A DNA stretch of 12,473 bases from Planctomycetota bacterium (GTDB lineage: Bacteria; Planctomycetota; Phycisphaerae; UBA1845): NCBI GenBank assembly GCA_022566435.1, contig JADFIX010000028.1:1-12473 (forward strand), given 5' to 3'. The notes under the pieces are model-generated. The model searched no databases. It had not been told where the DNA came from and saw only the letters and a list, made by a program, of their open reading frames with translations. The translations under genes and the position numbers were made by a program. Shown one piece after another: positions 234-12,473 of the stretch (positions within the stretch are counted from its first letter, which is position 1; each line of letters starts with the position of its first letter).

Positions 234-238
234 CCTCC
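234..238 (-). promoter_or_regulatory. Ribosome binding site of the PilO/GspM-like gene
   Basis: GGAGG on the minus strand, 8 nt before the ATG at 225. Its first G is the last base of the TAG stop of the PilMN fusion gene (238-240). It supports the start of an otherwise easily missed partial gene and suggests translational coupling. Confidence 0.75.
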
Positions 239-1788
239 TATAAGTCTGATGCGTCCGACAGAGAGAAATCCTCCATCAGCACGCACTCTATCGAAAATTC
301 CTGGATGATCGCATTCTCCCGCCGAGAACTGGTTTCGGTCATGATTGATGCACTTGCGAAAATCGGTGATCCCTCGATGTTGTTCGCAAACTCGTAGATG
401 AGCGATTCGTCGTATGTGGCGCCTTCCACGGATAGGTTTCCATCTGCGGAAAGCCTAGTGCGGGTCAGCCAGAGCCGATCCGGAACTGAGATCCGGATCG
501 TCTCCATCAGCTCCTTCCAGTGTCTGTACTGGTTGCTCTCCGCCAGCTCGGCAAGCCGAGCGGCGCGCTGCTCGATGATAATCAATTCCATTTTTAGCTC
601 ACGATACGTCGCTTCGACGAAGGAAGGATGCTCGACTTCAATTCGTAGCTTGGCAACCTTGGCTTCCAAATGCGCTTGCCCGAGAAACGCCAATCCCCAT
701 ATGGCTGCAGCTACAAGTGTCGGTATGATGAGAGCGCGAACAAGAGCCTCGAACTGCGGACCGCGCTTATCCTGGGGTGCGGAGGCAAGATTCGGTCCGA
801 CTATGCCGTCGTCGTTCGTACGCAGCGCAGCGAAGGCCCCAATCGCGGCGAGATGGGATTCATTACCGACAAGGCCGTCCCCGGCAACGCCAAGTGCCGT
901 GATCGTGGAATCGTCCATCTTCAGCGTTCTTGTGCGTAGGCCGGCTGAGTTTTCCAATACGGGGGTGATGGTACTGATCAGATTGCTTGCCCCGCACAGA
1001 AGCACATCCTGGACAGGCTTAGGCGCATCGAACGCGCGCATGTAGTGACGCGACATTCTTTCCAGTTGCCTGCACAGGTCGGATGACTCGATCGAACTCG
1101 CCGGGTCCGAGTCGTCTGGTTGCGGACCCATGGGAGCTGTGGATGAAGTATGATGGCTGAATAGGATCTTCCCACCGGAGACAAGACCGATTTCGATCGT
1201 GGCCGAATCCACCCAAACGATAAAGGTTTCTTGTCCCTCGAACCGGCCGGCCACCGTCGCGAGCCGTACCAGGGAAGTAAGCGCCGGCTCGATCACCGTT
1301 ACGTTCAACGCAAACTGCTTTAGGCAATCTGCAAGCGGAACGATGGTGCTCATTGATGATATGCCGAGGAGGCCATGTACGCGGCCGTCGCCGAGTTCGT
1401 GAAGATGTTCGCCGGCGGCTCGTTCTCCGAGTCCATATTGGACATAGCTGAGAGACCGTTCCATGGCTTGATCAAGGTCCGTGCGGACTTGGTCCGAAGT
1501 GCCGACGAAATGGCGCAGTACCATGTGTGGCGGGCCGACCGCGATGGCGGCCCGACCGCCCGAAATACCGAGACGCGCGAGCGTCGGCTTAAAAGCGGGA
1601 GCGAGGACTGAGATCGGTGGTAGCGCCGTCGGTAAGTACGATTCGGCCTCCGGTATGACCATCTCATCGCAGCGTAGGGTATAAGATTCGGGATCGCCAC
1701 CGCCCGTCCGGAAACCCGCAGCGATACGGATTCGGTGGCCCGAAAACTCCATTCCTACGACGGCGTTTTTCGGCTTTGGGTTGGCCAT
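238..1788 (-). CDS. PilM-PilN fusion (GspL-like) inner-membrane assembly protein
   Basis: This 516-residue protein combines three parts. Residues 1 to about 325 look like the actin-like PilM/GspL cytoplasmic domain: an opening strand VVGMEFSGHRIRIA in the place of the phosphate-1 loop, a second strand pair around 188-212 (FIVWVDSATIEIGLVSGG), and VLLCGASNLI (262-271) in the place of the adenosine loop. A hydrophobic segment follows at about 348-369. The periplasmic part starts with a charged helix (370-420) and ends in a PilN-type domain (423-505), with VPDRLWLTRTRLSADGNLSV, EGATYDE and FANNIEGSPIF matching the usual PilN pattern. In T4P systems PilM and PilN are separate; T2SS GspL has both in one chain. 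It would link the ATPase in the cytoplasm to the PilO/GspM-like partner encoded next. The usual Asp of the first loop appears as Glu14, so nucleotide binding is uncertain. The start ATG has only a weak GGA upstream. Confidence 0.85.
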   Translation of the reverse strand: MANPKPKNAVVGMEFSGHRIRIAAGFRTGGGDPESYTLRCDEMVIPEAESYLPTALPPISVLAPAFKPTLARLGISGGRAAIAVGPPHMVLRHFVGTSDQVRTDLDQAMERSLSYVQYGLGERAAGEHLHELGDGRVHGLLGISSMSTIVPLADCLKQFALNVTVIEPALTSLVRLATVAGRFEGQETFIVWVDSATIEIGLVSGGKILFSHHTSSTAPMGPQPDDSDPASSIESSDLCRQLERMSRHYMRAFDAPKPVQDVLLCGASNLISTITPVLENSAGLRTRTLKMDDSTITALGVAGDGLVGNESHLAAIGAFAALRTNDDGIVGPNLASAPQDKRGPQFEALVRALIIPTLVAAAIWGLAFLGQAHLEAKVAKLRIEVEHPSFVEATYRELKMELIIIEQRAARLAELAESNQYRHWKELMETIRISVPDRLWLTRTRLSADGNLSVEGATYDESLIYEFANNIEGSPIFASASIMTETSSRRENAIIQEFSIECVLMEDFSLSDASDL

Positions 1789-1843: not shown

Positions 1844-2311
1844 CTAGGGTACCGCGATCGTCGCCCGAACCGTTTTCGAAAGTCCTCCCGTGTCGCCCGT
1901 CGAGGTCACGATGACTTCTCCGCTCGCTCCGTCTGTGACCGTAACGACATAATAGGCACCCGAACCCGGCGGAAACTCCACACCCGGTGAGCCAAAGCCC
2001 GCCCGCCAGGACCGGTCGGCTCGAACCATCCCGAGCGCGTGCTGAATGCCCGCATCGGCCAGGTATAGCGCCCGGCTCAAGTCGAGCGTGTTGCGCGTGA
2101 TGGCCATCTCGGTGGCATCCATGTTAAGCGCAAATATGACGAGCGAAGACACGATCAGCATGACGAAGATACAGACCAGCAGGGCAACGCCTCGCGCCCG
2201 GCGGTCTCGCGATACATTCGCTCTTCCAGCGAGAACAATCTGTTGAGGTACACTAGTGGTCGGCCGCTTTCTCACCGGTAAAGCCCGTGATAATACCCTT
2301 AGAATTTGCAT
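1844..2311 (-). CDS. Short GspK/PilX-like minor pseudopilin
   Basis: A 155-residue protein with a class III (prepilin-type) signal: a basic leader ending ...DRRARG41, then a hydrophobic helix VALLVCIFVMLIVSSLVIFA, and the helical continuation ALNMDATEMAITRNTLDLSR and ALYLADAGIQHALG. The AxxLADAGI(Q)xAL pattern is typical of PilX and GspK N-terminal regions. Position +5 is Val rather than Glu, as expected for GspK-type pilins. GspK is normally around 300 residues with a large helical cap domain; here only about 60 residues follow the helix region, so that domain is missing. The stop is clean and the next gene follows after 55 bp, so there is no sign of frameshift. The leader of about 41 residues is long, but the ATG has a good AAGGA site 8 nt upstream. 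The protein should sit at or near the tip of the pseudopilus. Confidence 0.8.
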   Translation of the reverse strand: MQILRVLSRALPVRKRPTTSVPQQIVLAGRANVSRDRRARGVALLVCIFVMLIVSSLVIFALNMDATEMAITRNTLDLSRALYLADAGIQHALGMVRADRSWRAGFGSPGVEFPPGSGAYYVVTVTDGASGEVIVTSTGDTGGLSKTVRATIAVP

Positions 2312-2319
2312 GGCAGCGA

Positions 2320-2324
2320 TCCTT
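2320..2324 (-). promoter_or_regulatory. Ribosome binding site of the GspK/PilX-like gene
   Basis: AAGGA on the minus strand, 8 nt before the ATG at 2311. It overlaps the TGA stop of the GspJ-like gene (read as TGAAGGA). It supports the upstream start and therefore a long prepilin leader. Confidence 0.7.
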
Positions 2325-3943
2325 CAAAGCTCCTCCCACAAAACCAGTCCGGCCCCGTTGGGCGGAACGTATCGTACTCTTACACCCACTGCGTCTACTT
2401 TGATTTCTCCACCGTCGGGTGTTCCGACGGCATTGCCATAAAGACGCACAAATCGTGAATTGAGGCTTGGCCAGGTCCATTCTTCCAGATTGGTGAAATC
2501 AAATTTCAACAGCCCCTTGTTGGCGCTTCCTACGTACAGGTTCAGTTCAGCGGCGGATACCCTTTCCGCCGAATTGGGAACGGGCGTATCATTGGGCTCC
2601 TGAGACTCAGTGGAGGCTGGAAAACGTACGTGGAATTCGTCATCAACGAAGGGCGCGGTAATGAAGAGGTGTTTCACTATAAGTCGAACTCGAACAATTG
2701 TTCCCAGATCCTCCCACGACCCGGCGTGGAAGTAGGCCTGACGGTCGACGTCATTGTAAAACGTCAGATTCGAGCGAGCATAGACACTGTCAGGTGGCCC
2801 GAGAGCTCCCGGTAGATCGCGCCACTCCTGATTCCAACTGCCCGTGCTCGTCAACCAGAAGGTCTGGGTGTTGGATTCTGCCTCGAACGTGCGGATCTTC
2901 ACCGAATCCACGTAGATCGTCGTACCGCCAGCTCCGGCGTCTATATTGTTAATCTTCACCTTGATAAGATCCAGGTCCTCGTACGTCCAACTGGCGTAAT
3001 CGCTCGTCACGTCCACCCAGAACCAGTCAATGTTATTCTCAAAGCGCAACAGGGCGGGTTGTCCGAAGGTGTGTACGGGCCCATCACCTGGAAGACGGTC
3101 CCGGATCTGGATCCCTAGAACGTCGTCGCCCATTGGGCCGGCAGTGTTCAGGTACACACCAACGAGCACCGTGCCGAGTGTTCCGCTGTAGCCGGACTGA
3201 AGGATGTGTGCGTTGATCCTGGAACCACTGTCGCCGTCGCTGAGCAGTCCATCCGGCGTACCAAGCAGATTACTATCGTTATCCCATGATGCGCTGCCGC
3301 TGTAATCCGATGCGTGGAAGTCGACATATTCCGCGGCCAATCCGTCCCGCTGCTTCCGGATCCAGACCATCGCGGCGAGGGGTACACTTTGTCCGGTGAC
3401 CGTGACCGACGACGTGATGCGGATCATTCGGATATCCGTCGTTGTCGTCGTGGAGGTCACGCCGTCGATTTCGAAGCACTCGAAAGTCAGTGTATCGATG
3501 TCTAGAGCGAGCAGGCTGGTCGGCGGGTCGATTCCGTAATAGATCCGGTGGCTACTACTATCGTGATCCCACTTGACAACGCTGTCATCAGGCAACGTGA
3601 TCGCCAGGAACCCGGAGTCATCTGTCGGGCCGCTGACTTCGACCACCGTGCGGGCGGATCGCAGATGACGCGTAATGTGAGTCAGCGTTCCGCTGAGGTG
3701 TTGCAACGTGTCTGATCGTCGGGCCTGCATGTCCCACGCTTGCCAGGTGATTCGCACCGTTTGTGCACCAATCACGGAGATCACGGTCATCAGTGACATC
3801 GCCATCATCGTTTCCAAGAGCGTCATCGCCCGGGTCCGCACAGGCTTGATTCGCCGGCGCGTGGCGACGGCAAATGCCGCTTTGCGGTCGGCCTCGCACA
3901 GTCGGCATCGCGAAGGATTTGTTCCGGCCATTCGAGAGATCAT
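2324..3943 (-). CDS. GspJ-like pseudopilin with two tandem C-terminal beta-sandwich-like modules
   Basis: A 539-residue protein, more than twice the usual GspJ length of about 200. A prepilin signal lies at residues 36-60: RTRA39 then MTLLETMMAMSL, with Glu at +5 and Ala instead of the usual Gly at -1. A GspJ/PilW-like pilin domain follows to about residue 198 (LTHITRHLRSARTVV, then the strand-rich region TLTFECFEIDG and a closing PLAAMVWIRKQ). Residues 205-355 and 358-527 form two mutually similar beta-rich modules. Both have a Trp followed by LG(T/P)PD (W220/LGTPD; W374/LGPPD), then LGT(V/I)xVxV (256-264; 413-421), an LL(R/K)F strand (298; 478), and a final IxVD(S/A)V strand (343; 514). Such modules occur in surface and adhesive proteins. 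The start overlaps the GspI stop by ATGA; Met5 is an alternative. The leader carries CRLC at 13-16. In T2SS, GspJ belongs to the tip complex, so the modules would be displayed at the fibre tip. Confidence 0.85.
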   Translation of the reverse strand: MISRMAGTNPSRCRLCEADRKAAFAVATRRRIKPVRTRAMTLLETMMAMSLMTVISVIGAQTVRITWQAWDMQARRSDTLQHLSGTLTHITRHLRSARTVVEVSGPTDDSGFLAITLPDDSVVKWDHDSSSHRIYYGIDPPTSLLALDIDTLTFECFEIDGVTSTTTTTDIRMIRITSSVTVTGQSVPLAAMVWIRKQRDGLAAEYVDFHASDYSGSASWDNDSNLLGTPDGLLSDGDSGSRINAHILQSGYSGTLGTVLVGVYLNTAGPMGDDVLGIQIRDRLPGDGPVHTFGQPALLRFENNIDWFWVDVTSDYASWTYEDLDLIKVKINNIDAGAGGTTIYVDSVKIRTFEAESNTQTFWLTSTGSWNQEWRDLPGALGPPDSVYARSNLTFYNDVDRQAYFHAGSWEDLGTIVRVRLIVKHLFITAPFVDDEFHVRFPASTESQEPNDTPVPNSAERVSAAELNLYVGSANKGLLKFDFTNLEEWTWPSLNSRFVRLYGNAVGTPDGGEIKVDAVGVRVRYVPPNGAGLVLWEEL

Positions 3944-4359
3944 TCGATACTCCGGGCCATCTTGGTGTGAAGTTCGACGTCCGATTCGGTGGCGTCGAAA
4001 ATCAAGTCGCCGTCGTCGTCGGACCAGACTCTGACGTGGATCACCATCAACAGGTTGGGAATGCCCCCCTCACTCGCCGCATCGGTGCGAATCACCTGGT
4101 ACGCTACCGTCGGAAAGCCTTGCGATGCAAATGTTCCGGTTTCGTTTGCGGTGGTAAACCCTCCGTTGATCACGGCCATTTGATTTTCGATAGTCTGAAT
4201 GGCCAGTATGCCGAGAGCTCGGCTCCGTTCCAGGTAGCGGCGATAGGTCATGGATTCCGTCAGATACTGAGTTGCCGGGACGATGGCAATCGCCAGCACG
4301 GCTATAGCGGCAATCAGTTCCACGAAGGTGAAGCCCCGACGTTTTTGCTGAAGACTCAC
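3940..4359 (-). CDS. gspI: GspI-like minor pseudopilin
   Basis: A 139-residue protein with a textbook prepilin signal: a short basic leader (MSLQQKRRG) followed by FTFVELIAAIAVLAIAI, with Gly at -1, Phe at +1 and Glu at +5. The globular part is short, as in GspI (usually about 120 residues), and reads like GspI/PilV: GILAIQTIENQMAVING, then strands such as AYQVIRTDA and VIHVRVWSDD. The start is GTG, overlapping the GspH stop as GTGA, with a GAGGA site 4 nt upstream. In known T2SS it forms the start of the tip complex with GspJ and GspK, whose counterparts are the next two genes. It is the only pseudopilin here with both a short leader and the standard Gly at -1 plus Glu at +5. Confidence 0.85.
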   Translation of the reverse strand: MSLQQKRRGFTFVELIAAIAVLAIAIVPATQYLTESMTYRRYLERSRALGILAIQTIENQMAVINGGFTTANETGTFASQGFPTVAYQVIRTDAASEGGIPNLLMVIHVRVWSDDDGDLIFDATESDVELHTKMARSIE

Positions 4360-4886
4360 AGTTTCCTCACAGTGGTCGTGCCCGTTACGAGGATGACCTC
4401 AACCCTATAGGTCACACCTGAAGAAGAAAGATTAGCCCAGTAGCCTGCAAGGGCTGCGCCGCTCGGCTCGAACTCGAAGTTCCACGCGGAAATTGATCCT
4501 CCCACGCCTTTCGGAAGCGGTTGGCGGGGATTGACCACGACATCCGAGGGAGTATCTCGCCGAAAAATAGTGTACCCGGATGAGTCAAACCCAAGATAAT
4601 GGTTCACTTTCTGGGTGATTGCCATGCTTCGCGTATACCGCAGGTCGACGCTCAGTTGCCGCGTAAAGGCATTCACACTCGGCCTACCGAAGCTTCCGCC
4701 TCCGACGCGCAGGAGCACCACGGCGCTTAGGATGCCGATAATCGTCACGACCGCGATAAGCTCAATCAGTGTCATCGCCCGAACAGAGGGCATTCGGGGC
4801 GTGTCTCCCGCTGGTTGTGTCAATCGGGCGTGCAGGCCACGATGGGTGGCATCTCGCCGACAAACTGTTCCTGGCCACGGTTGCAT
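4356..4886 (-). CDS. gspH: GspH/FimT-like minor pseudopilin
   Basis: A 176-residue protein. The prepilin signal is SVRA37 then MTLIELIAVVTIIGILSAVV, with Glu at +5 and Ala at -1. The rest follows the GspH/FimT pattern: a helix with VNAFTRQLSVDLRYTRSMAI (residues 66-85) that carries the usual LR.(A/T)RS.AI signature, then a beta region with TIFRRDT and FEFEPSGAALAG, the common F.P.G.A motif. GspH is a minor pseudopilin near the fibre tip. The start at 4886 has GAGG 9 nt upstream and gives a 37-residue leader. A second start at Met32 (4793) has GGGAG 11 nt upstream and would give a normal 6-residue leader (MPSVRA). The sequence does not decide between them; the first site has better spacing. 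The gene begins 19 bp after the GspF stop. Confidence 0.83.
   Translation of the reverse strand: MQPWPGTVCRRDATHRGLHARLTQPAGDTPRMPSVRAMTLIELIAVVTIIGILSAVVLLRVGGGSFGRPSVNAFTRQLSVDLRYTRSMAITQKVNHYLGFDSSGYTIFRRDTPSDVVVNPRQPLPKGVGGSISAWNFEFEPSGAALAGYWANLSSSGVTYRVEVILVTGTTTVRKL
4364..4368 (-). promoter_or_regulatory. Ribosome binding site supporting the GTG start of GspI-like gene
   Basis: GAGGA on the minus strand, 4 nt before the GTG at 4359. It lies inside the end of the GspH-like gene and supports the GTG start, which also gives the expected 9-residue leader. Confidence 0.65.
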
Positions 4887-4905: not shown

Positions 4906-6084
4906 TCACTTTATGTGCTGAAACATGTCGAATATCGGCAAGTAGATGGCCATCGCGATGGCCCCTATAGCAAATGCCATGATTACGGTGATGAGCGGTT
5001 CGATCAAGGTGCTCATTCGTTTCATGCGCCGCTTAAAGTCTTTTTCCGAATATTCACCGACTTTCATGATCATGTTGCCGAGATCGCCGCTCTTCTCTCC
5101 TAGAATGATCATTCGCGCCAGCAAGGGTGGCACGAGGTCGGTGTACTCGCTGAGTTTGGTGCCAACGCCTTCTCCCCGATCAACCGCCAGGCGCAGTTCG
5201 CGTACCATTCCCACGAATTCGGCATGGCCGACGACTCGTTCGGTCAGGGCGAGTGATTCCTTCACTGAAATCCCACCCGAGAGCAGACTTCCGAAAGTGC
5301 GGACGAAGCGGCCGACGAGGGCGCCTTGGAGTACGGGCCCCAGCACCGGCATGCGCAGCAACAGTCGATCGCGAGTTAACTGCAGTCGCGGGTGGGAGCG
5401 ATAATGCCTGTACAAGAAGACCATCGACCCGAGCAGCAAACACCCGATCCACCATGTGTTGACAAACAATACACTCATCGCGATCAACACCCGGGTGATG
5501 GCGGGAAGCGTCATGCCTGCCTTGGCGTAGGTTTCTTGAAACGTCGGGACTACGAAGATCATGAGAAATCCGATTGCCAGGGTGCCGAATACGAGGACGA
5601 TTCCCGGATAGGTCAGCGATTGCCGGATTTGAGCGATTGTCTCTCGACGGTCTTCAATAGTTTGGGCGAGTCTTTCCAGTGCGGAAACGAGCTTACCGCT
5701 CGCCTCACCCGCGCGAACGAGACTCATGACCATCGGCGAGAATACCTCGGGGTGCTTGGAAAGCGCGCCTGAGAATGAGGTGCCGGAAGTTATGTCTTGA
5801 ATCAGAGCCTCGATCGTAGGCACCGTTTTGGAGAGGGAATCATCCGTGGTCAAGGCTTCCAAGGCTTTTGTGAGGGGAATACCGCTGTTGAGGAGCGTGG
5901 CGGTGTTGGAGAAGAGCATGGCCAAGTCCGCATCGGATGGCCGCTTCGGTGGTTTTTTGGCCTTCTTGTGGCGCTGCGACAGCTTATCGGCACCGTGCGC
6001 TGCTGCACGGTGACCCCTCTCGCGCCGAGCCTTGACTGGCTTTACGAGCGGGCTATGCGAATCGTGTGCCGTGATGACTTTCAT
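4906..6084 (-). CDS. gspF: GspF/PilC-type inner-membrane platform protein
   Basis: A 392-residue polytopic inner-membrane protein with two repeated GspF domains. The first (about 55-160) holds MLFSNTATLLNSGIPLTKAL, VFSPMVMSLVRAGEASGKL and the end IRQSLTYPGIVLV. The second (about 258-365) holds RFVRTFGSLLSGGISVKESL, LLARMIILGEKSGDLGNM and STLIEPLITVIMAF. Membrane segments are predicted at about 161-181, 208-225 and 362-384, the standard three. The role is to couple the ATPase to fibre assembly. The first 50 residues are odd: a basic, His-rich stretch (KPVKARRERGHRAAAH, RHKKAKKPPKRP) replaces the usual N-terminal small domain of GspF. The start lies 24 bp after the ATPase stop, with GGCGGA just upstream of the ATG. 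No PilT-like retraction ATPase is seen nearby. Confidence 0.93.
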   Translation of the reverse strand: MKVITAHDSHSPLVKPVKARRERGHRAAAHGADKLSQRHKKAKKPPKRPSDADLAMLFSNTATLLNSGIPLTKALEALTTDDSLSKTVPTIEALIQDITSGTSFSGALSKHPEVFSPMVMSLVRAGEASGKLVSALERLAQTIEDRRETIAQIRQSLTYPGIVLVFGTLAIGFLMIFVVPTFQETYAKAGMTLPAITRVLIAMSVLFVNTWWIGCLLLGSMVFLYRHYRSHPRLQLTRDRLLLRMPVLGPVLQGALVGRFVRTFGSLLSGGISVKESLALTERVVGHAEFVGMVRELRLAVDRGEGVGTKLSEYTDLVPPLLARMIILGEKSGDLGNMIMKVGEYSEKDFKRRMKRMSTLIEPLITVIMAFAIGAIAMAIYLPIFDMFQHIK

Positions 6085-6108: not shown

Positions 6109-7797
6109 TTAGTGAACGAGCTTTTGCCGAACTTCTTCGACCGTCGTGTCGCCGTCGAGGGCCCGTAGGAACCCGGCATCCGCCAAGGTCATCATCCCTT
6201 CTCCTTTGGCGATGGCGTATATCTCCGAGGACGGCGCGCCCCGCTCGATGGCCTGTTTTACGGTTTTTGTAATCACCAGCGATTCAAAAATGGGAATTCG
6301 GCGATGGAATCCCGTGCCGGAGCACTTATCACAACCGCCGCCGCGCAGGAACTTGTGTTGACTATGGTCCTCATTCTCAGGAGCGACGGCCTCGAGGGCG
6401 GCGGGAGAGGGCTCGTATTCCTCTTTACACTTTTCGCAAACGCGGCGCACGAGACGCTGCGCGATCACGCCGATCATCGCATCGGAGATTAAGAAGGAGT
6501 CGACGCCCAAGTCTAACAGTCTCGTCACCACACCGACGGCGTCGTTGGTGTGCATCGTACTCAACAGCAGGTGGCCCGTCAGTGCGGCTTGTACGGAGGT
6601 CTGGGACGTTTCTCGATCGCGAATTTCTCCGACCATGATCACATCGGGATCCTGTCGAAGTAGATATTTGAGCGCCGAGGCAAAGCCGATACCGAATTCC
6701 GCATCCACTTGGATCTGATTAATTCCCTCCAGCTGGTATTCGACCGGATCTTCGACCGTGACAATGTTGCGGTGCGGCTGGTTCAGTTCGGTCAGAATCG
6801 TATAGAGTGTTGTCGTCTTGCCGCTTCCCGTTGGACCCGTAACCAGAAGCATTCCGTGGGGGCGTTTCAGCATTTCCCTAATGCGCAGGCTTTCTGCCTT
6901 AGGGAATCCCAAGCGGTCAAATTCGAAATTGATGGATGATCGGTCCACGATTCGGGCGACAACTTTTTCGCCACACACCGTTGGGATGGTTGAGATCCGC
7001 AAGTCCAAGGAACGGCCCGCTTCGTTTATGGAAATGTGTCCATCCTGAGGGCGACGATGCTCAGTAATGTCCATGTCGGCCATGACCTTCAGGCGCGACA
7101 CCACGGCGGGCATGATTCGCGGCGGAATGGTCATGATTTCCTGGAGTTCGCCATCGACGCGATAGCGAACACGGACGCTGTTGCCCTGAGGTTCGATATG
7201 GATATCAGACGCCTTCAATCCTACGCCTCCGGCAATCACCGAATTCACCAGACGCACGACCGGGGCATCATTGGCTTCGAACTCTTGAGAAGAATCCAGA
7301 TCGGCGATCTCGGTGTGTCCGGAGCGGAGCTCCTCAACACGCATATCGATGATCGTCTGTTGGGCAGTGTCCTTTTCGTCGAAACACCGCTTCAGCGCCG
7401 TCAGCATCTTGGCCGGCGATGTAATAATGGCTTCGACGAAGTAGCCCGTGAGGAGCTCCACCTCCGAAATCGTGTCGAGGTCGTCGGGAGCCACCATGGC
7501 CAATATGAGTGTCTCATCTTTCACGTCGATAGGTAGCACGAATCGGCTTCGGGCAAGTGATTCAGGAATCAAATGCGCCATCTGCGGGTCGATGGATTCG
7601 AGGGCCGACGCCTGATACTCGACGCCATGCTGTTCCTTTAGCGCAGTCGATAGATCTTCTTCGGTGATCAATCCTTGCTGCAGTAGAATCTCGCCCAGCA
7701 AGGTATCTTCGTCGCGCGGCAACGCCAGCGCCGCCTCGACGGCATCCTCCGTCAAGAGTCCACGACTAACTAGAACGGCGCCTAATCGGGGGATCAT
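6109..7797 (-). CDS. gspE: GspE/PilB-type assembly ATPase with MshEN N-terminal domain
   Basis: A 562-residue hexameric secretion ATPase that powers fibre extension. The N terminus has two MshEN-type repeats, residues 4-27 (RLGAVLVSRGLLTEDAVEAA...) and 33-56 (LLGEILLQQGLITEEDLSTA...), separated by five residues, followed by the rest of the N1 domain to about 140. The N2 domain follows (NSVIAGGVGLKASDIHIEP, 185-203). The catalytic domain has Walker A GPTGSGKTT (321-329), the Asp box VTVEDPVEY (346-354), Walker B VIMVGEIRD (387-394 with Glu391) and the His box LTGHLLLSTMHTND (406-419). A zinc-binding tetracysteine motif is intact: C454/C457 and C489/C492, as in GspE and PilB. The start overlaps the response regulator stop by ATGA. 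All catalytic elements are present, so the protein should be active. The sequence does not settle whether it serves secretion or pilus assembly. Confidence 0.96.
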   Translation of the reverse strand: MIPRLGAVLVSRGLLTEDAVEAALALPRDEDTLLGEILLQQGLITEEDLSTALKEQHGVEYQASALESIDPQMAHLIPESLARSRFVLPIDVKDETLILAMVAPDDLDTISEVELLTGYFVEAIITSPAKMLTALKRCFDEKDTAQQTIIDMRVEELRSGHTEIADLDSSQEFEANDAPVVRLVNSVIAGGVGLKASDIHIEPQGNSVRVRYRVDGELQEIMTIPPRIMPAVVSRLKVMADMDITEHRRPQDGHISINEAGRSLDLRISTIPTVCGEKVVARIVDRSSINFEFDRLGFPKAESLRIREMLKRPHGMLLVTGPTGSGKTTTLYTILTELNQPHRNIVTVEDPVEYQLEGINQIQVDAEFGIGFASALKYLLRQDPDVIMVGEIRDRETSQTSVQAALTGHLLLSTMHTNDAVGVVTRLLDLGVDSFLISDAMIGVIAQRLVRRVCEKCKEEYEPSPAALEAVAPENEDHSQHKFLRGGGCDKCSGTGFHRRIPIFESLVITKTVKQAIERGAPSSEIYAIAKGEGMMTLADAGFLRALDGDTTVEEVRQKLVH

Positions 7798-8201
7798 GCG
7801 CGAGCCTTGCCTTCGCTTGCGCCCGCGTGATTGCCAGCGAGGTAACGTCGGAGCTTCATTTCGAGAACTTTGGGATCGTAAGGCTTGACGATGTAATCAT
7901 CCGCCCCCATTGCCATGGCCCGGTTCACGTCGTCCACTCCGGAGCGGGCGGTCAGCATGAGGATAGGCGTTGTCGCCAAGCCCGGTGATTCCTTCAACCG
8001 CGCGCAAGCCGTCAAGCCGTCCATGTCGGGCATCGCGATGTCCAGAATGATGAGGTCGGGGCGCTCGCTTTTCACTGTCGCCAGGGCATCCTGCCCGGAA
8101 ATCGCGGTGATCACGCGATATCCGAGATGCTGAAGGCGGAATGAAATCAGATCGAGCAGCTTTTGCTCGTCATCGACTAGCAGGATGGTAGGCTTGGTCA
8201 T
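7794..8201 (-). CDS. Single-domain CheY/PilH-like response regulator
   Basis: A 135-residue protein that is one receiver domain with no output domain. All phosphorylation residues are present: the acidic pair D10-D11 (LLVDDEQ), the acceptor D54 (IILDIAMPDMDG), T84 (LMLTARSG) and K106 (DDYIVKPYDP). The last 15 residues (GNHAGASEGKARA) look like a flexible tail. It should be phosphorylated by the histidine kinase encoded just upstream, with which it overlaps by ATGA, and its own stop overlaps the start of the ATPase by ATGA. Without a DNA-binding domain it must act by protein contact, and gene order makes the ATPase or platform the first candidate. A strong GGAGGA site lies 6 nt before the start. 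Confidence 0.94.
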   Translation of the reverse strand: MTKPTILLVDDEQKLLDLISFRLQHLGYRVITAISGQDALATVKSERPDLIILDIAMPDMDGLTACARLKESPGLATTPILMLTARSGVDDVNRAMAMGADDYIVKPYDPKVLEMKLRRYLAGNHAGASEGKARA

Positions 8202-9811
8202 CGTTTGTCCTCCATTTCGCAGCCACTCGGAAACGCATGAAGTTCACTTTCAGCGCGCTGCAGGACGGCGTCCGCAGAGTCGCCGTCTTGCGGATAGGCT
8301 GCTACGCCAAAACGCATGCTGTAGTTGTCAGAGGCAGACCCCTGCGTGCGATGCATTTGAATGAGCGAACGCATAATGCGATCGACGGCCGCATAACCTG
8401 CCGCGCGTGTGCCGCCGCGCATCAGCAGGAGGATTTGACTGTCGACTGCTAGCACGCTGTCGCTAGGGCGCAAGTTTCGAACGGCAAGCTCCTGCACATT
8501 CGAGAGTAAGTTTTCACTCGAATTGCTGTCATTGGATTCGATCTGCAATAACACCGCGGCCAAAGGAACTCTCAGCGAATGAATATCATCAATGGCTCGT
8601 TCCGTCATCCGCAACATCCATCTTCGGGCATGGCCTTCGGAAAGTGGAAAACAAAAAACGAAGCACGATCCTCGTTGCGGCTCATCTCGAACCTGTAGCG
8701 TGCCACCATGAGCCCATGCAATATCGCAAGCGATGGTCAGCCCGAGGCCCATCCCACCGCCGCCCAAGGCCCCTGCATGGGAATCCTTCGGTCGCCCGCG
8801 TTCGAACGGCTGGAATATGCGACTCCGGTCAGCCGCGCTAATGCCTTCGCCGGAGTCTTGCACTTCGATGACTAGAGACTTTCCCGAATCGAGGAGACTC
8901 CGTCTGTCATCGTCGGAGCAACGTTCTCGAGTGACGGCCGTCGAATTCTCTGAATCGAGAACGAACGTTCGTATCCAAATTGCTCCACCCGGCGGAGTGT
9001 GTTGGAGGGCGTTCGTCAGGACGTTCCGTACTGCCTGCACAAGTAGTTCGTGGTCGCCCACCAGCGGAGGAAGCGAGTTGCCGAACTCGATATGTAGCGA
9101 AATGCCCGCCCGATCAGCTACTGGCCTTGCATGAAGCGTTGACTGCTCAACTACACGCACGATGTCGATCGCGCTCGATTTAATTCTAGAAAGAGATCCG
9201 GACGTCACCCATAACGAGGTGAGGTCGGTCATCGCGCGAACCAACTGTTCCAGATCCTCTGCAGCAGATCTAACAAAGCGGGATTGGCCTGCGTTCAGCT
9301 CGCCGACCACACCCTCCTGCAAAAACGCGAGCGCTTCCTTGGCCGCGGTCAATGTATTTCGAAGCTCATGGACGATAGACTTCAGCCGGTTGATTTTGCG
9401 CTGGAAAAACTCACCTTGCGACGAATCTTGATCTAAGCGACGCAGGATTGTCACACGCCAAAGCGTGGAATTGGATGAGGATTCCCAGGTAAATGTGTCG
9501 AGTCCGTATTCCTCCCCGTCCGCCAGGCGCACGGAGGGCGTCGAAGTGCCGGCAGCTCCATGGCCGGGAATCACAATCGGGATATCAAGAGCCGAGGATT
9601 TGCCGTTGCTGGAAGGCTCAGGCGATAGGGTGTCGAAATCAGCCGTCGGCCAGAGAATGCGTGCTTCGGCGTTGAGGTACAGGCGCCCATCCGTACTGCA
9701 AGTCACCATCACAGGTACAGGCGCGCGCTCGAAGAACTCGGCCAACAGGCCTTCGGGTGGGCCGGTCGACGTTGTTTGCTGGCAACAAAGTTGGTTACTA
9801 GATTCAGGCAT
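8198..9811 (-). CDS. Soluble PAS histidine kinase with degenerate GGDEF-like C-terminal domain
   Basis: A 537-residue kinase with no membrane segment, so probably cytoplasmic. Residues 22-125 resemble a PAS domain (FFERAPVPVMVTCSTDGRLY, LNAEARILW). The HisKA domain holds the H box IVHELRNTLTAAKEAL with acceptor H148. The ATPase domain has the N box NVLTNALQHTP (263-273), G1 DSGEGIS (319-325), F box IFQPFERG (332-339) and G2 GGGMGLGLT (351-359). After the kinase, residues 400-530 look like a GGDEF fold: LRPSDSVLAVDSQILLLMRGGT aligns with the usual D..aR.GGDEF stretch, with DSQIL in place of GGDEF, and FGVAAYPQDGDSADAVLQRAE matches the typical end of that domain. The active site is lost, so it cannot be a cyclase; it may sense a nucleotide or only dimerise. 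It overlaps the regulator gene by ATGA. The start at 9811 has only a weak Shine-Dalgarno site and follows a 248-bp gap. Confidence 0.9.
   Translation of the reverse strand: MPESSNQLCCQQTTSTGPPEGLLAEFFERAPVPVMVTCSTDGRLYLNAEARILWPTADFDTLSPEPSSNGKSSALDIPIVIPGHGAAGTSTPSVRLADGEEYGLDTFTWESSSNSTLWRVTILRRLDQDSSQGEFFQRKINRLKSIVHELRNTLTAAKEALAFLQEGVVGELNAGQSRFVRSAAEDLEQLVRAMTDLTSLWVTSGSLSRIKSSAIDIVRVVEQSTLHARPVADRAGISLHIEFGNSLPPLVGDHELLVQAVRNVLTNALQHTPPGGAIWIRTFVLDSENSTAVTRERCSDDDRRSLLDSGKSLVIEVQDSGEGISAADRSRIFQPFERGRPKDSHAGALGGGGMGLGLTIACDIAWAHGGTLQVRDEPQRGSCFVFCFPLSEGHARRWMLRMTERAIDDIHSLRVPLAAVLLQIESNDSNSSENLLSNVQELAVRNLRPSDSVLAVDSQILLLMRGGTRAAGYAAVDRIMRSLIQMHRTQGSASDNYSMRFGVAAYPQDGDSADAVLQRAESELHAFPSGCEMEDKR
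8208..8213 (-). promoter_or_regulatory. Strong ribosome binding site of the response regulator
   Basis: GGAGGA on the minus strand, 6 nt before the ATG at 8201, inside the last codons of the kinase gene. With the ATGA overlap it suggests that the regulator can be made in excess over the kinase, whose own site is weak. Confidence 0.7.
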
Positions 9812-10059: not shown

Positions 10060-11268
10060 TCAAGTTGGCGGGAGGTCGTCCGTCAGGAGCGCGCTGCCCC
10101 GCGCGCTGCGCTTCTCGTTGACTTGTTGGAAAAAGCTGAGGGCTAGAGAATCATCCGGCCTCTCTGCTAGCATTGTCTCTAAGAATCCAGCCGCCTGTTC
10201 CAAGTCACCGTGGTACCAAGCTGAGTAGGCCCGGAGAAGATTCCAATCGGGTTCTTTCGGTGCCGCTTGCTCACCACGGCGAATACTCCGTTCGGCGCCC
10301 TCCCAATCCGCGAGTCTAATCTGGCTTTCAGCCAAGATCCACCACGCTCGGCCGTCGTCGGGTGACTGGGTTACATGGTCTTCCATCAATCTTGCGGCCT
10401 TTTCTGACGTGCCAAGCCGGTTGCAGCAGATCGCCAGCGCCCGTACCGCGGCGCGCGATGCCCGCGGCGTGCTTGGATCTTTGTCTCTTCGTCTTGCTGC
10501 CGACTCCACGAGCGGTTGCAGCACGGCCAGTGCCTCCGCGTAGCGACCGATACGAACAAGCAGAAGGCCGAACTCCTCGGACATTCCCGCCGCGTCCGCT
10601 AACAAGCCCTCGGCGGACTTGAAGTCTTTGACCGCCAACTCCGGGGCATCCAAGAGCAAATGCACTTGCGCACGCAGGATCGCCAGCTGTTCCATGCCTT
10701 CCGCACCCTGAAGATGTTCGTCCAAGAATTGTCTCGCCTCCGTAGGTCGACCGGAGTTGACGAGACATTCCCCAACGGCAAGCAAATAATCAACATTCTC
10801 CGGCTCGATTTCGGCGGCCTTTTGGTAGTAGCGCAACGCCTCTTTGTGGTGCCAATGTCTTTCCGCGAGTATTCCCTCCAGGAATGCCAATTCCGGCGAA
10901 TCGTCATCAAGAGACTTAGCGTGACGGATGGCGTCACGTGCGGCTTCCAGAGATGACGTTTCCAGGTGGCACTGAGCCAACATTCGGAAATAGACGGGAT
11001 TCGTTGGATCGATCGAGGCAGCCCGTTGCAGGGTCGCCACAGCCTCGAGAACGTAACCCTGTTCAAATTGTTCATTGGCGAGGCGAAGTTTGAACGCCGC
11101 GCGAATCCGTTTCCAATCCTCTTGCGCCTTATGTTGCATGGAACGTTGCTTTGTCGAGTGACAACCCGTACTTAACACCAACAAGCAAAGCCCAACGCGG
11201 ATTATACGGAGACTTGGCAGCAAGTAGCTACTTTGAGGATCGTTGGCGAGTGGACTGATCATAGTCAT
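10060..11268 (-). CDS. TPR-repeat lipoprotein, candidate pilotin/secretin partner
   Basis: A 402-residue protein. The N terminus has a signal peptide (residues 15-35: a short polar region, RIIR, then VGLCLLVLSTG) and a possible lipid-attachment Cys36. The lipobox STGC is imperfect, as Ser rather than Leu sits at -3. From about residue 55 to 385 the protein is almost all TPR repeats, about nine, for example EQFEQGYVLEAVATLQRAAS, PVYFRMLAQCHLETSSLEAA, KEALRYYQKAAEIEPENVD and PDWNLLRAYSAWYHGDLEQA. TPR lipoproteins of the PilF/PilW/Tgl type help secretins insert and assemble in the outer membrane, and this gene follows the secretin by 73 bp, so that role is the simplest reading. PilF-type pilotins are shorter (about 250 residues, six repeats). 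Met3 is an alternative start; both have only a weak GAGAG upstream. Confidence 0.85.
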   Translation of the reverse strand: MTMISPLANDPQSSYLLPSLRIIRVGLCLLVLSTGCHSTKQRSMQHKAQEDWKRIRAAFKLRLANEQFEQGYVLEAVATLQRAASIDPTNPVYFRMLAQCHLETSSLEAARDAIRHAKSLDDDSPELAFLEGILAERHWHHKEALRYYQKAAEIEPENVDYLLAVGECLVNSGRPTEARQFLDEHLQGAEGMEQLAILRAQVHLLLDAPELAVKDFKSAEGLLADAAGMSEEFGLLLVRIGRYAEALAVLQPLVESAARRRDKDPSTPRASRAAVRALAICCNRLGTSEKAARLMEDHVTQSPDDGRAWWILAESQIRLADWEGAERSIRRGEQAAPKEPDWNLLRAYSAWYHGDLEQAAGFLETMLAERPDDSLALSFFQQVNEKRSARGSALLTDDLPPT

Positions 11269-11341: not shown

Positions 11342-12473
11342 TTAGTCGGGACTGGTTGTGTCGACCCCGCTCTGTTCTTGGGGCGAACTCGGACGACCCA
11401 ATCGCGGCTTCACCGCGCCTTGTTCTTGCATGATCAGGTCCCAGATAAACGCTCGCGTGATGCTGCCGTCTTCGTCCCACTCTCGCGCTTGCGCAATATC
11501 TTCCTTGAGCTTGATGGCTGACAAGAAACTAGGCTGATTGATTAAGGCCATTTGCGTGTTCCAGAGAGCGTGTTTATCGTCGCCCTTGGCATGGTATTCT
11601 AGTGCACGTTGATAGTGCCATTGAGCCATGCGCTCCCGTCCGTGCCACATCATTCCGCGTCGGAGCCCGACTCGCGTACGCTCATTGTTTTGGAGCTGTT
11701 CGAGGCTGTGCCGGGCGTACTCCGCGTCGTTCTTTATAATGTGCACGGTAAGCAGAATGATGACTTCCTCACGCTCGATTGCGTCGTTTCGAGAGCGAAA
11801 CAGCGTCCCCAGATGAGGTATGTTGCCGAGCAAAGGAATCTGAGAACGTGCGGCTGAGTTCACCTCGCGAAAAAGACCGCCGATGAGAATCGTGTGTCCG
11901 TCCTTGACGAGCACATTGACCGTGACTTCCGTTGCCTGCTCAAAGGGTAGCTGCTCGGGCGTCAATCCGCCGATGCTGTCCTTCGGTCGCAGCTCCATTC
12001 GGATGTAACCGTCGGTACCGATGAACGGCCGGAACGTTAGCTGGGTACCGGTTTCCAAGAACTCGACGGTCTGAATGGCTTGGGTCTCAGTCACCGTCGT
12101 TGTGATGTAGCCGTCGCGGCGACCGACGAGAATACTACCGATCTGCTTGTTGAGCGCGATTATTTTGGGGTTAGCGATCACGCTCGTATCCGTGATCTGT
12201 TCGAGTGCGCGGATGAACAAGGCCACGTGATCCTTCATGATTCCGATGGACACCCCGCCATCGGGAACGTTACCCCTAAAGACGCTGGTCACGTTGGAGT
12301 TGAACAGCTCGAGTCGATCTGTTGGCAGCGTCCCAAGTGTAAGATCGAGGATTCCATTCGAATTCGCGCCCATTAATTCAAGGTCCACTCCACCCAATAA
12401 AGTGAAATCCACGCCCATAGAGTTTTCTTCGTTTAGTCGCGCTCGGAGAATCGTCGCCTCCACGAGAACCTGT
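11342..12473 (-). CDS. gspD: GspD/PilQ-type secretin, C-terminal 376 residues (cut by right edge)
   Basis: The frame is open to the right edge. The first visible residues QVLVEATILRARL match the usual start of the secretin core, so an apparent GTG start at 12463 is internal. The core covers about the first 246 residues, with SVIANPKIIALNKQ, the region TVEFLETGTQLTFRPFI, the strand VLVKDGHTILIGGLFRE, the secretin signature QIPLLGNIPHLGTLF and the closing REEVIILLTVHII. It forms the outer-membrane channel of a T2SS or T4P. The core is followed by about 130 more residues (KNDAEYARHSLEQLQ onwards) that are not part of the barrel; they contain a TPR-like repeat (WHYQRALEYHAKGDDKHALW, then NTQMALINQP) and end in a Pro/Ser-rich tail. 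Tails of this kind in other secretins can bind a pilotin. The N0-N3 domains and signal peptide lie outside the window. Confidence 0.95.
   Translation of the reverse strand, partial: QVLVEATILRARLNEENSMGVDFTLLGGVDLELMGANSNGILDLTLGTLPTDRLELFNSNVTSVFRGNVPDGGVSIGIMKDHVALFIRALEQITDTSVIANPKIIALNKQIGSILVGRRDGYITTTVTETQAIQTVEFLETGTQLTFRPFIGTDGYIRMELRPKDSIGGLTPEQLPFEQATEVTVNVLVKDGHTILIGGLFREVNSAARSQIPLLGNIPHLGTLFRSRNDAIEREEVIILLTVHIIKNDAEYARHSLEQLQNNERTRVGLRRGMMWHGRERMAQWHYQRALEYHAKGDDKHALWNTQMALINQPSFLSAIKLKEDIAQAREWDEDGSITRAFIWDLIMQEQGAVKPRLGRPSSPQEQSGVDTTSPD

Follow-up and report, generated by a model that had tools for sequence, protein, structure and literature searches.

Pilins that carry functional modules are already known: a database survey of proteins describes such modules as grafted onto minor pilins, counts 264 architectures, and includes one planctomycete protein among its 15 examples (PMC8179133). 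PilB and PilC of Streptococcus sanguinis show that such a cargo can act as an adhesin for proteins or glycans (PMC8179133, PMC9934059). The minor pilins H, I, J, and K have been described as forming a tip complex that is capped by a subunit without the glutamate at position 5 of the prepilin-type start, Glu5 (PMC10191384). Here, we describe a 12,473-nucleotide stretch (the window) of a Planctomycetota bacterium of the class Phycisphaerae (assembly GCA_022566435.1, contig JADFIX010000028.1), in which the gene in the J position of a filament cluster encodes a minor prepilin with a long C-terminal extension made of two modules that probably arose by duplication. We read the protein as a minor pilin of the modular kind, displaying a ligand-binding cargo at the filament tip, and we put the probability of this reading, including its ligand, tip location, and function, at about 0.6. 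No account of a planctomycete J slot was found among the matches listed in the literature searched, subscription journals and preprints lying outside its scope.

A J-position prepilin and its C-terminal extension

The gene is located between pseudopilin genes of the I and K types; its first 4 bases lie within the I-like gene, and the following gene begins after a gap of 12 bases. As no GspJ model of Pfam or NCBIfam matched the protein up to E 0.1, it is called J by this position only. The label "GspJ-like" given to it in an earlier, sequence-only reading of the window is thus correct insofar as a pilin-type subunit occupies the J position next to assembly genes and a secretin, but it finds no backing from a GspJ model. 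The features of the gene, placed with the help of relatives' loci, are as follows.

2324..3943, minus strand: J-slot minor prepilin with C-terminal extension, an open frame of 539 aa
3764..3844, minus strand: end of the prepilin signal and hydrophobic helix, residues 34-60, with Ala at -1 and MTLLE containing Glu5
3353..3829, minus strand: pilin module, residues about 39-197, matching J pilin domains within the class
2876..3349, minus strand: module 1, residues 199-356, with internal likeness to module 2; AlphaFold model pLDDT 41.6
2348..2875, minus strand: module 2, residues 357-532, its C-terminal end conserved in a second genome, G379; AlphaFold model pLDDT 32.7, unusable

The prepilin-type start reads A/MTLLE, and Glu5 is present in 57 of 58 aligned J rows (the window and 57 relatives). 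The Pfam N_methyl model matched the protein at E 0.098, below its cut-off, and matched 25 of the 58 rows at E 0.001. Beyond the pilin module, there are 342 residues, in which Pfam recognized no known domain; the segment first singled out at 2363-3331 corresponds to residues 205-527.

When 397 genomes of the class were searched with the whole protein, a single C-terminal match outside the window was obtained, in G379, which belongs to the same order (42% across the final 80 residues). In that locus, the 104 aa available from the end of module 2 (38% identity) are followed by the K-type cap pseudopilin, here X (63%), and by a GspL-type fusion, here PilMN (44%), with an assembly gap within module 2. 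Because G379 has the module 2 end joined to X and PilMN, the tail has been kept in a further genome and the gene is real; the extension is not an assembly error. The ending LWEEL common to both proteins was discounted as protein evidence, since a GGAGGA-like ribosome site preceding the following gene lies within its codons.

Likeness between the two modules

In a direct local alignment of the two halves under four scoring schemes, the observed score was reached by 44, 2, 7, and 1 of 2000 shuffles and by 3, 0, 0, and 0 of 161 natural pieces cut from the tails of other J proteins; in a separate alignment run, it was reached by 28 and 4 of 1000 shuffles. We also scored module 1 with a HMMER profile built from module 2 and its relative in G379. 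With default weighting, module 1 scored 11.2 bits, a value reached by none of 5000 shuffles (4088 reported, best 9.6) and none of the 161 natural pieces (154 reported, best 7.8). Without weighting, its score was 1.5 bits; 68 of 5000 shuffles scored as high or higher (2789 reported, best 7.6), as did 11 of 161 pieces (118 reported, best 6.1).

A common block runs from D311 to D346 in module 1 (VDVT...WTY...IYVD) and from D482 to D517 in module 2 (FDFT...WTW...IKVD); the alignment pairs the WTY...IYVD and WTW...IKVD ends, while the pairing of VDVT with FDFT is a by-eye extension. The two aspartates of the D(V/F)T...VD block are 35 residues apart in module 1, module 2, and G379, as counted by eye. 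Among 1.54 million residues of six-frame open stretches from the collected loci, duplicate copies included, the pattern D(V/F)T...WT(W/Y)...VD, written after both modules had been seen, was confined to the window, G379, and a single unrelated protein, L062.

The sequence-only reading had proposed an internal duplication from a series of motifs, and these are present in the stated order in both regions. Shuffles and profiles make the duplication itself probable; the register is partly different, however, and LLRF and LLKF, which had been taken as a matching pair, lie 48 and 39 residues ahead of the VD aspartate, so that their pairing looks coincidental. Altogether, an old, diverged duplication probably gave rise to residues 199-356 and 357-532; their likeness exceeds shuffles in most tests though not in all, and the statistical case from sequence is good rather than overwhelming.

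The beta-sandwich fold and the fold shared by both modules, which were also proposed, stay conjectural, as neither AlphaFold model is reliable. A Foldseek search with the weak module 1 model (module 2's being unusable) gave matches that include the carbohydrate-binding modules (CBMs) CBM28, CBM4, CBM15, CBM22, CBM16, and CBM32 and F5/8C domains, a faint hint that module 1 may resemble jelly-roll carbohydrate-binding domains, among others. Sequence searches gave no homologue of the modules among PDB sequences up to E 1 and none among plasmid records, and viral contigs gave one pattern match and no relative. In Pfam and PHROGs, nothing rose above noise: DUF4847 (E 0.018) matched residues 151-208, which lie mostly in the pilin module, DUF4096 matched at E 0.13, and the PHROG matches were at E 0.083 and 0.11. 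A two-module profile run against 337 genomes of the class returned the window's own two copies and three matches that we disbelieve (E 0.05-0.08). The module pair appears to be an orphan that matches no known family.

The J slot across the class and the surrounding cluster

The search of the 397 genomes of the class, in which at most three candidates were scored per genome, found 77 J places, the window and G379 included. We fetched 56 further places chosen by E-value (all to E 1e-5, plus G384), which with the J gene of L183 from genome G606 make 57; the 19 weaker places left out (E 1.9e-4 to 0.00975) have open frames of 163-441 aa, 7 of the 19 exceeding 300. Gene order is largely kept among the 57 loci: J was matched in 54, with X as the next match after J in 47 of these. 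A secretin lies within the stretch in 44 of 54, downstream of X there as compared to upstream of E in the window, and PilMN was recognized in only 21 of 54.

A tail of at least 100 aa beyond the pilin module (194-993 aa) is carried by 48 of the 57 J proteins; 6 are complete without one, and 3 are cut by contig ends. The expectation that GspJ normally ends after the pilin domain therefore fits the nearest group, L183 and its relatives, but not the class, in which 48 of 56 fetched J proteins are extended. Across the 58 J rows, Pfam recognized Laminin_G_3 in 16, DUF7305 in 10, the lamin-tail domain LTD in 4, Inhibitor_I36 in 4, CBM96 in 3, CBM3 in 1, CBM9 in 1, and others, with none in the window's row; several of the cargo families in the J slot are ligand-binding types. 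The tails sort into seven groups plus the window's own, one of them (cluster 0, formed by single linkage) mixing LamG and repeat cargos. The cargos taken to be swapped comprise lectins, CBMs, DUF7305, repeat folds, and the window's orphan pair. On a FastTree phylogeny of E and F with 50 rows (the window and 49 of the 57 fetched loci, bin1297 left out), in which some forks are weak, the passenger class, with "no tail" counted as one class and four rows of unknown tail set aside, changes at least 14 times. Glu5 is absent from X in 49 of 49 rows and kept in H (57/57), I (34/34), and, as noted above, nearly all J rows.

Two J genes per locus, each with its own cargo, are found in L124, L125, and L130. 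Five J proteins (L120, L145, L156, L158, and L169) share a tail of 213-214 aa, which may have a ThuA/glutamine-amidotransferase-like fold, unusual as a pilin cargo.

A hydrophobic-(x)-Pro ending, often ILP, occurs in 30 of the 48 extended J proteins (L119-L182) and is absent from the window's. By cargo group, it is found in 22/25, 5/10, 2/2, and 1/1 proteins of four groups and in 0/5, 0/4, and 0/1 of three; elsewhere in the loci, it occurs in GspE 0/55, GspF 0/54, H 0/56, I 0/33, X 8/48, secretin 2/45, and PilMN 1/23 rows. Overlapping start codons were suspected as its cause but account for few cases, an overlap being seen in just 7 of the 54 rows whose stop is visible. Our tentative proposal, held with less than even confidence, is that the J minor pilin may be a dedicated exchangeable tip in this class, in which the machine cluster is conserved, the cargo is repeatedly swapped, and one gene would set filament specificity; the hydrophobic-(x)-proline tail of four of the seven unrelated groups may dock or sort the subunit.

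The window's E and F pair groups in the tree with L183 of G606, a genome of another class, whose J protein has 191 aa and lacks a tail. A search with that protein matched 15 of 60 genomes (G606 and 59 relatives), with frames of 177-246 aa and no comparable tail; within the aligned region of 4 of the 15 matches, there are one or two TGA codons. The closest ATPase elsewhere, 71% identical, belongs to Phycisphaerales bacterium bin1297 (L007), where an assembly gap conceals the downstream genes and a J search gave one match, to the N-terminus, at E 0.1. Searches of 60 genomes of relatives detected the J protein and PilMN in the window's genome alone. In the window's lineage, the cargo seems to have been added to a J protein that had no tail, separately from the tails of other class members.

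On the minus strand, the genes of the window run in the order secretin, TPR protein, histidine kinase, response-regulator open reading frame, GspE/PilB, GspF/PilC, H-like, I-like, J, X (PilX/GspK-like), and a PilN-domain protein, so that E, F, a secretin, and a GspL-type gene are encoded together with J.

11342..12463, minus strand: secretin, C-terminal part, the frame reaching the window end (Pfam, NCBIfam)
10060..11268, minus strand: TPR protein (Pfam)
8198..9811, minus strand: histidine kinase with a weak GGDEF-like tail (Pfam)
7794..8201, minus strand: response-regulator open reading frame (frame call; its receiver domain is presumed)
6109..7797, minus strand: assembly ATPase GspE/PilB (Pfam, NCBIfam)
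4906..6084, minus strand: platform protein GspF/PilC (Pfam)
4356..4886, minus strand: H-like minor pseudopilin (GspH, just above cut-off)
3940..4359, minus strand: I-like minor pseudopilin (gspI model, E 0.0017, below cut-off)
1844..2311, minus strand: K-type cap pseudopilin X, without Glu5 (GspK model, E 0.0079, below cut-off)
238..1788, minus strand: GspL-type fusion PilMN (C-terminal PilN domain above cut-off; the N-terminal part, matched by no model, is one we take to be actin-like, PilM-type)

The TPR gene and GspE flank the kinase and regulator frames (7794-9811). The regulator frame overlaps its neighbors, the kinase and GspE, by 4 bases each, and the pair could possibly control the filament. 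The secretin and ATPase match models of both the type II secretion system and the type IV pilus, the secretin also those of MSHA, all below cut-offs. On contig C368 of the same genome, which is 64% complete, a partial PilT-like match (298.9 bits, below cut-off) beside another PilB-like frame suggests a separate type IV pilus.

Proposed role, alternatives, and known systems

In the mechanism that we propose, the prepilin peptidase would cleave the N-terminal pilin module, which would then join an H-I-J-K minor-pilin complex that initiates the filament and remains at its tip. The co-encoded E/F/GspL-type machine would assemble a type 4 filament, pushed toward or through the co-encoded secretin. 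Since X lacks Glu5 and H, I, and J have it, as in the capped complex cited above, J would be placed close to the cap, leaving the C-terminal cargo exposed. The C-terminal 340 residues would be this displayed cargo, two copies of an orphan and probably jelly-roll beta module, binding an extracellular ligand, most likely a polysaccharide or glycoprotein; two like modules would offer two sites and therefore avidity. The directly observed part of this picture consists of the open frame, the prepilin-type start, the gene context, the variety of cargos elsewhere, the conservation of the module 2 end, and, on statistical grounds and in most but not all tests, the duplication. The surface or adhesive role suggested in the sequence-only reading would be in keeping with the lectin and CBM domains in relatives' J slots.

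It is unlikely, in our judgment, that the machine is instead a type II secretion system whose J cargo acts on substrates within the periplasm by recruiting or gating them. The pseudopilin set H-I-J-K would fit such a role, as would the PilM/PilN-type fusion, which we take to resemble GspL, and the match on C368 would leave the type IV pilus to another locus. On the other hand, the secretin and ATPase match models of more than one system, several relatives' cargos are lectin- or CBM-like, which is a better fit to binding outside the cell, and in a genome of this completeness absences mean little. We consider it similarly improbable that a real extension is no repeat and consists of two unrelated beta regions alike by chance or convergence. 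One of the two profile settings (68/5000) and one of the four alignment schemes (44/2000) are unconvincing, and the structure models of both modules are unreliable; the remaining tests (0/5000 and 2, 7, and 1 of 2000 shuffles) and the identical 35-residue spacing of the aspartates speak for a repeat.

Far less probable than either is an artefact of assembly, frame, or binning, i.e., a mis-assembled fusion tail or a contig foreign to the genome. It draws on the PilMN profile, found in only 2 of 114 genomes of the order, the window's (G000:C925) and G379, and on the grouping of E and F with a cluster from another class, two observations for which horizontal transfer or mis-binning is possible. 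However, G379 joins the module 2 end to X and PilMN, which makes the gene real wherever it belongs. Nine stretches taken from seven further contigs of the genome have GC values of 0.555-0.606, a range that includes the window's 0.566. Were the contig horizontally acquired or mis-binned, the modular-pilin reading of the gene would stand.

The collected loci place module grafting in one gene slot across a class, adjoining a group in which that slot is unextended. The slot lets one ask how a filament changes its target through the change of one gene, and orphan binding modules of uncultured bacteria become testable by simple expression.

Among described systems, the protein resembles PilB and PilC of S. 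sanguinis, which likewise have an N-terminal pilin module and bulky C-terminal ligand-binding module(s), are minor subunits, and are presumed to be displayed at the tip, PilC with two extra modules, Ig-like plus lectin (PMC8179133, PMC9934059). In contrast to theirs, its two extra modules are alike and find no match in any known family, and they are borne by the J-position subunit of an E-F-H-I-J-K-L cluster that includes a secretin. It shares the H-I-J-K gene order and the Glu5-bearing prepilin start with GspJ/PulJ of type II secretion, unlike which it is matched by no GspJ model; the survey calls GspJ non-modular (PMC8179133). Large minor pilins of the CofB/ComZ type also have extra domains that sequence tools hardly recognize, but they belong to other systems, and the part of the survey describing them mentions no duplication of those domains (PMC8179133). 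To jelly-roll CBMs (CBM4, 15, 22, 28, 32, and 35), the low-confidence module 1 model has a weak fold likeness, without a sequence match of either module. Whereas modular pilins as such were already known, the apparently duplicated orphan module and a J slot that looks exchangeable across a class are new.
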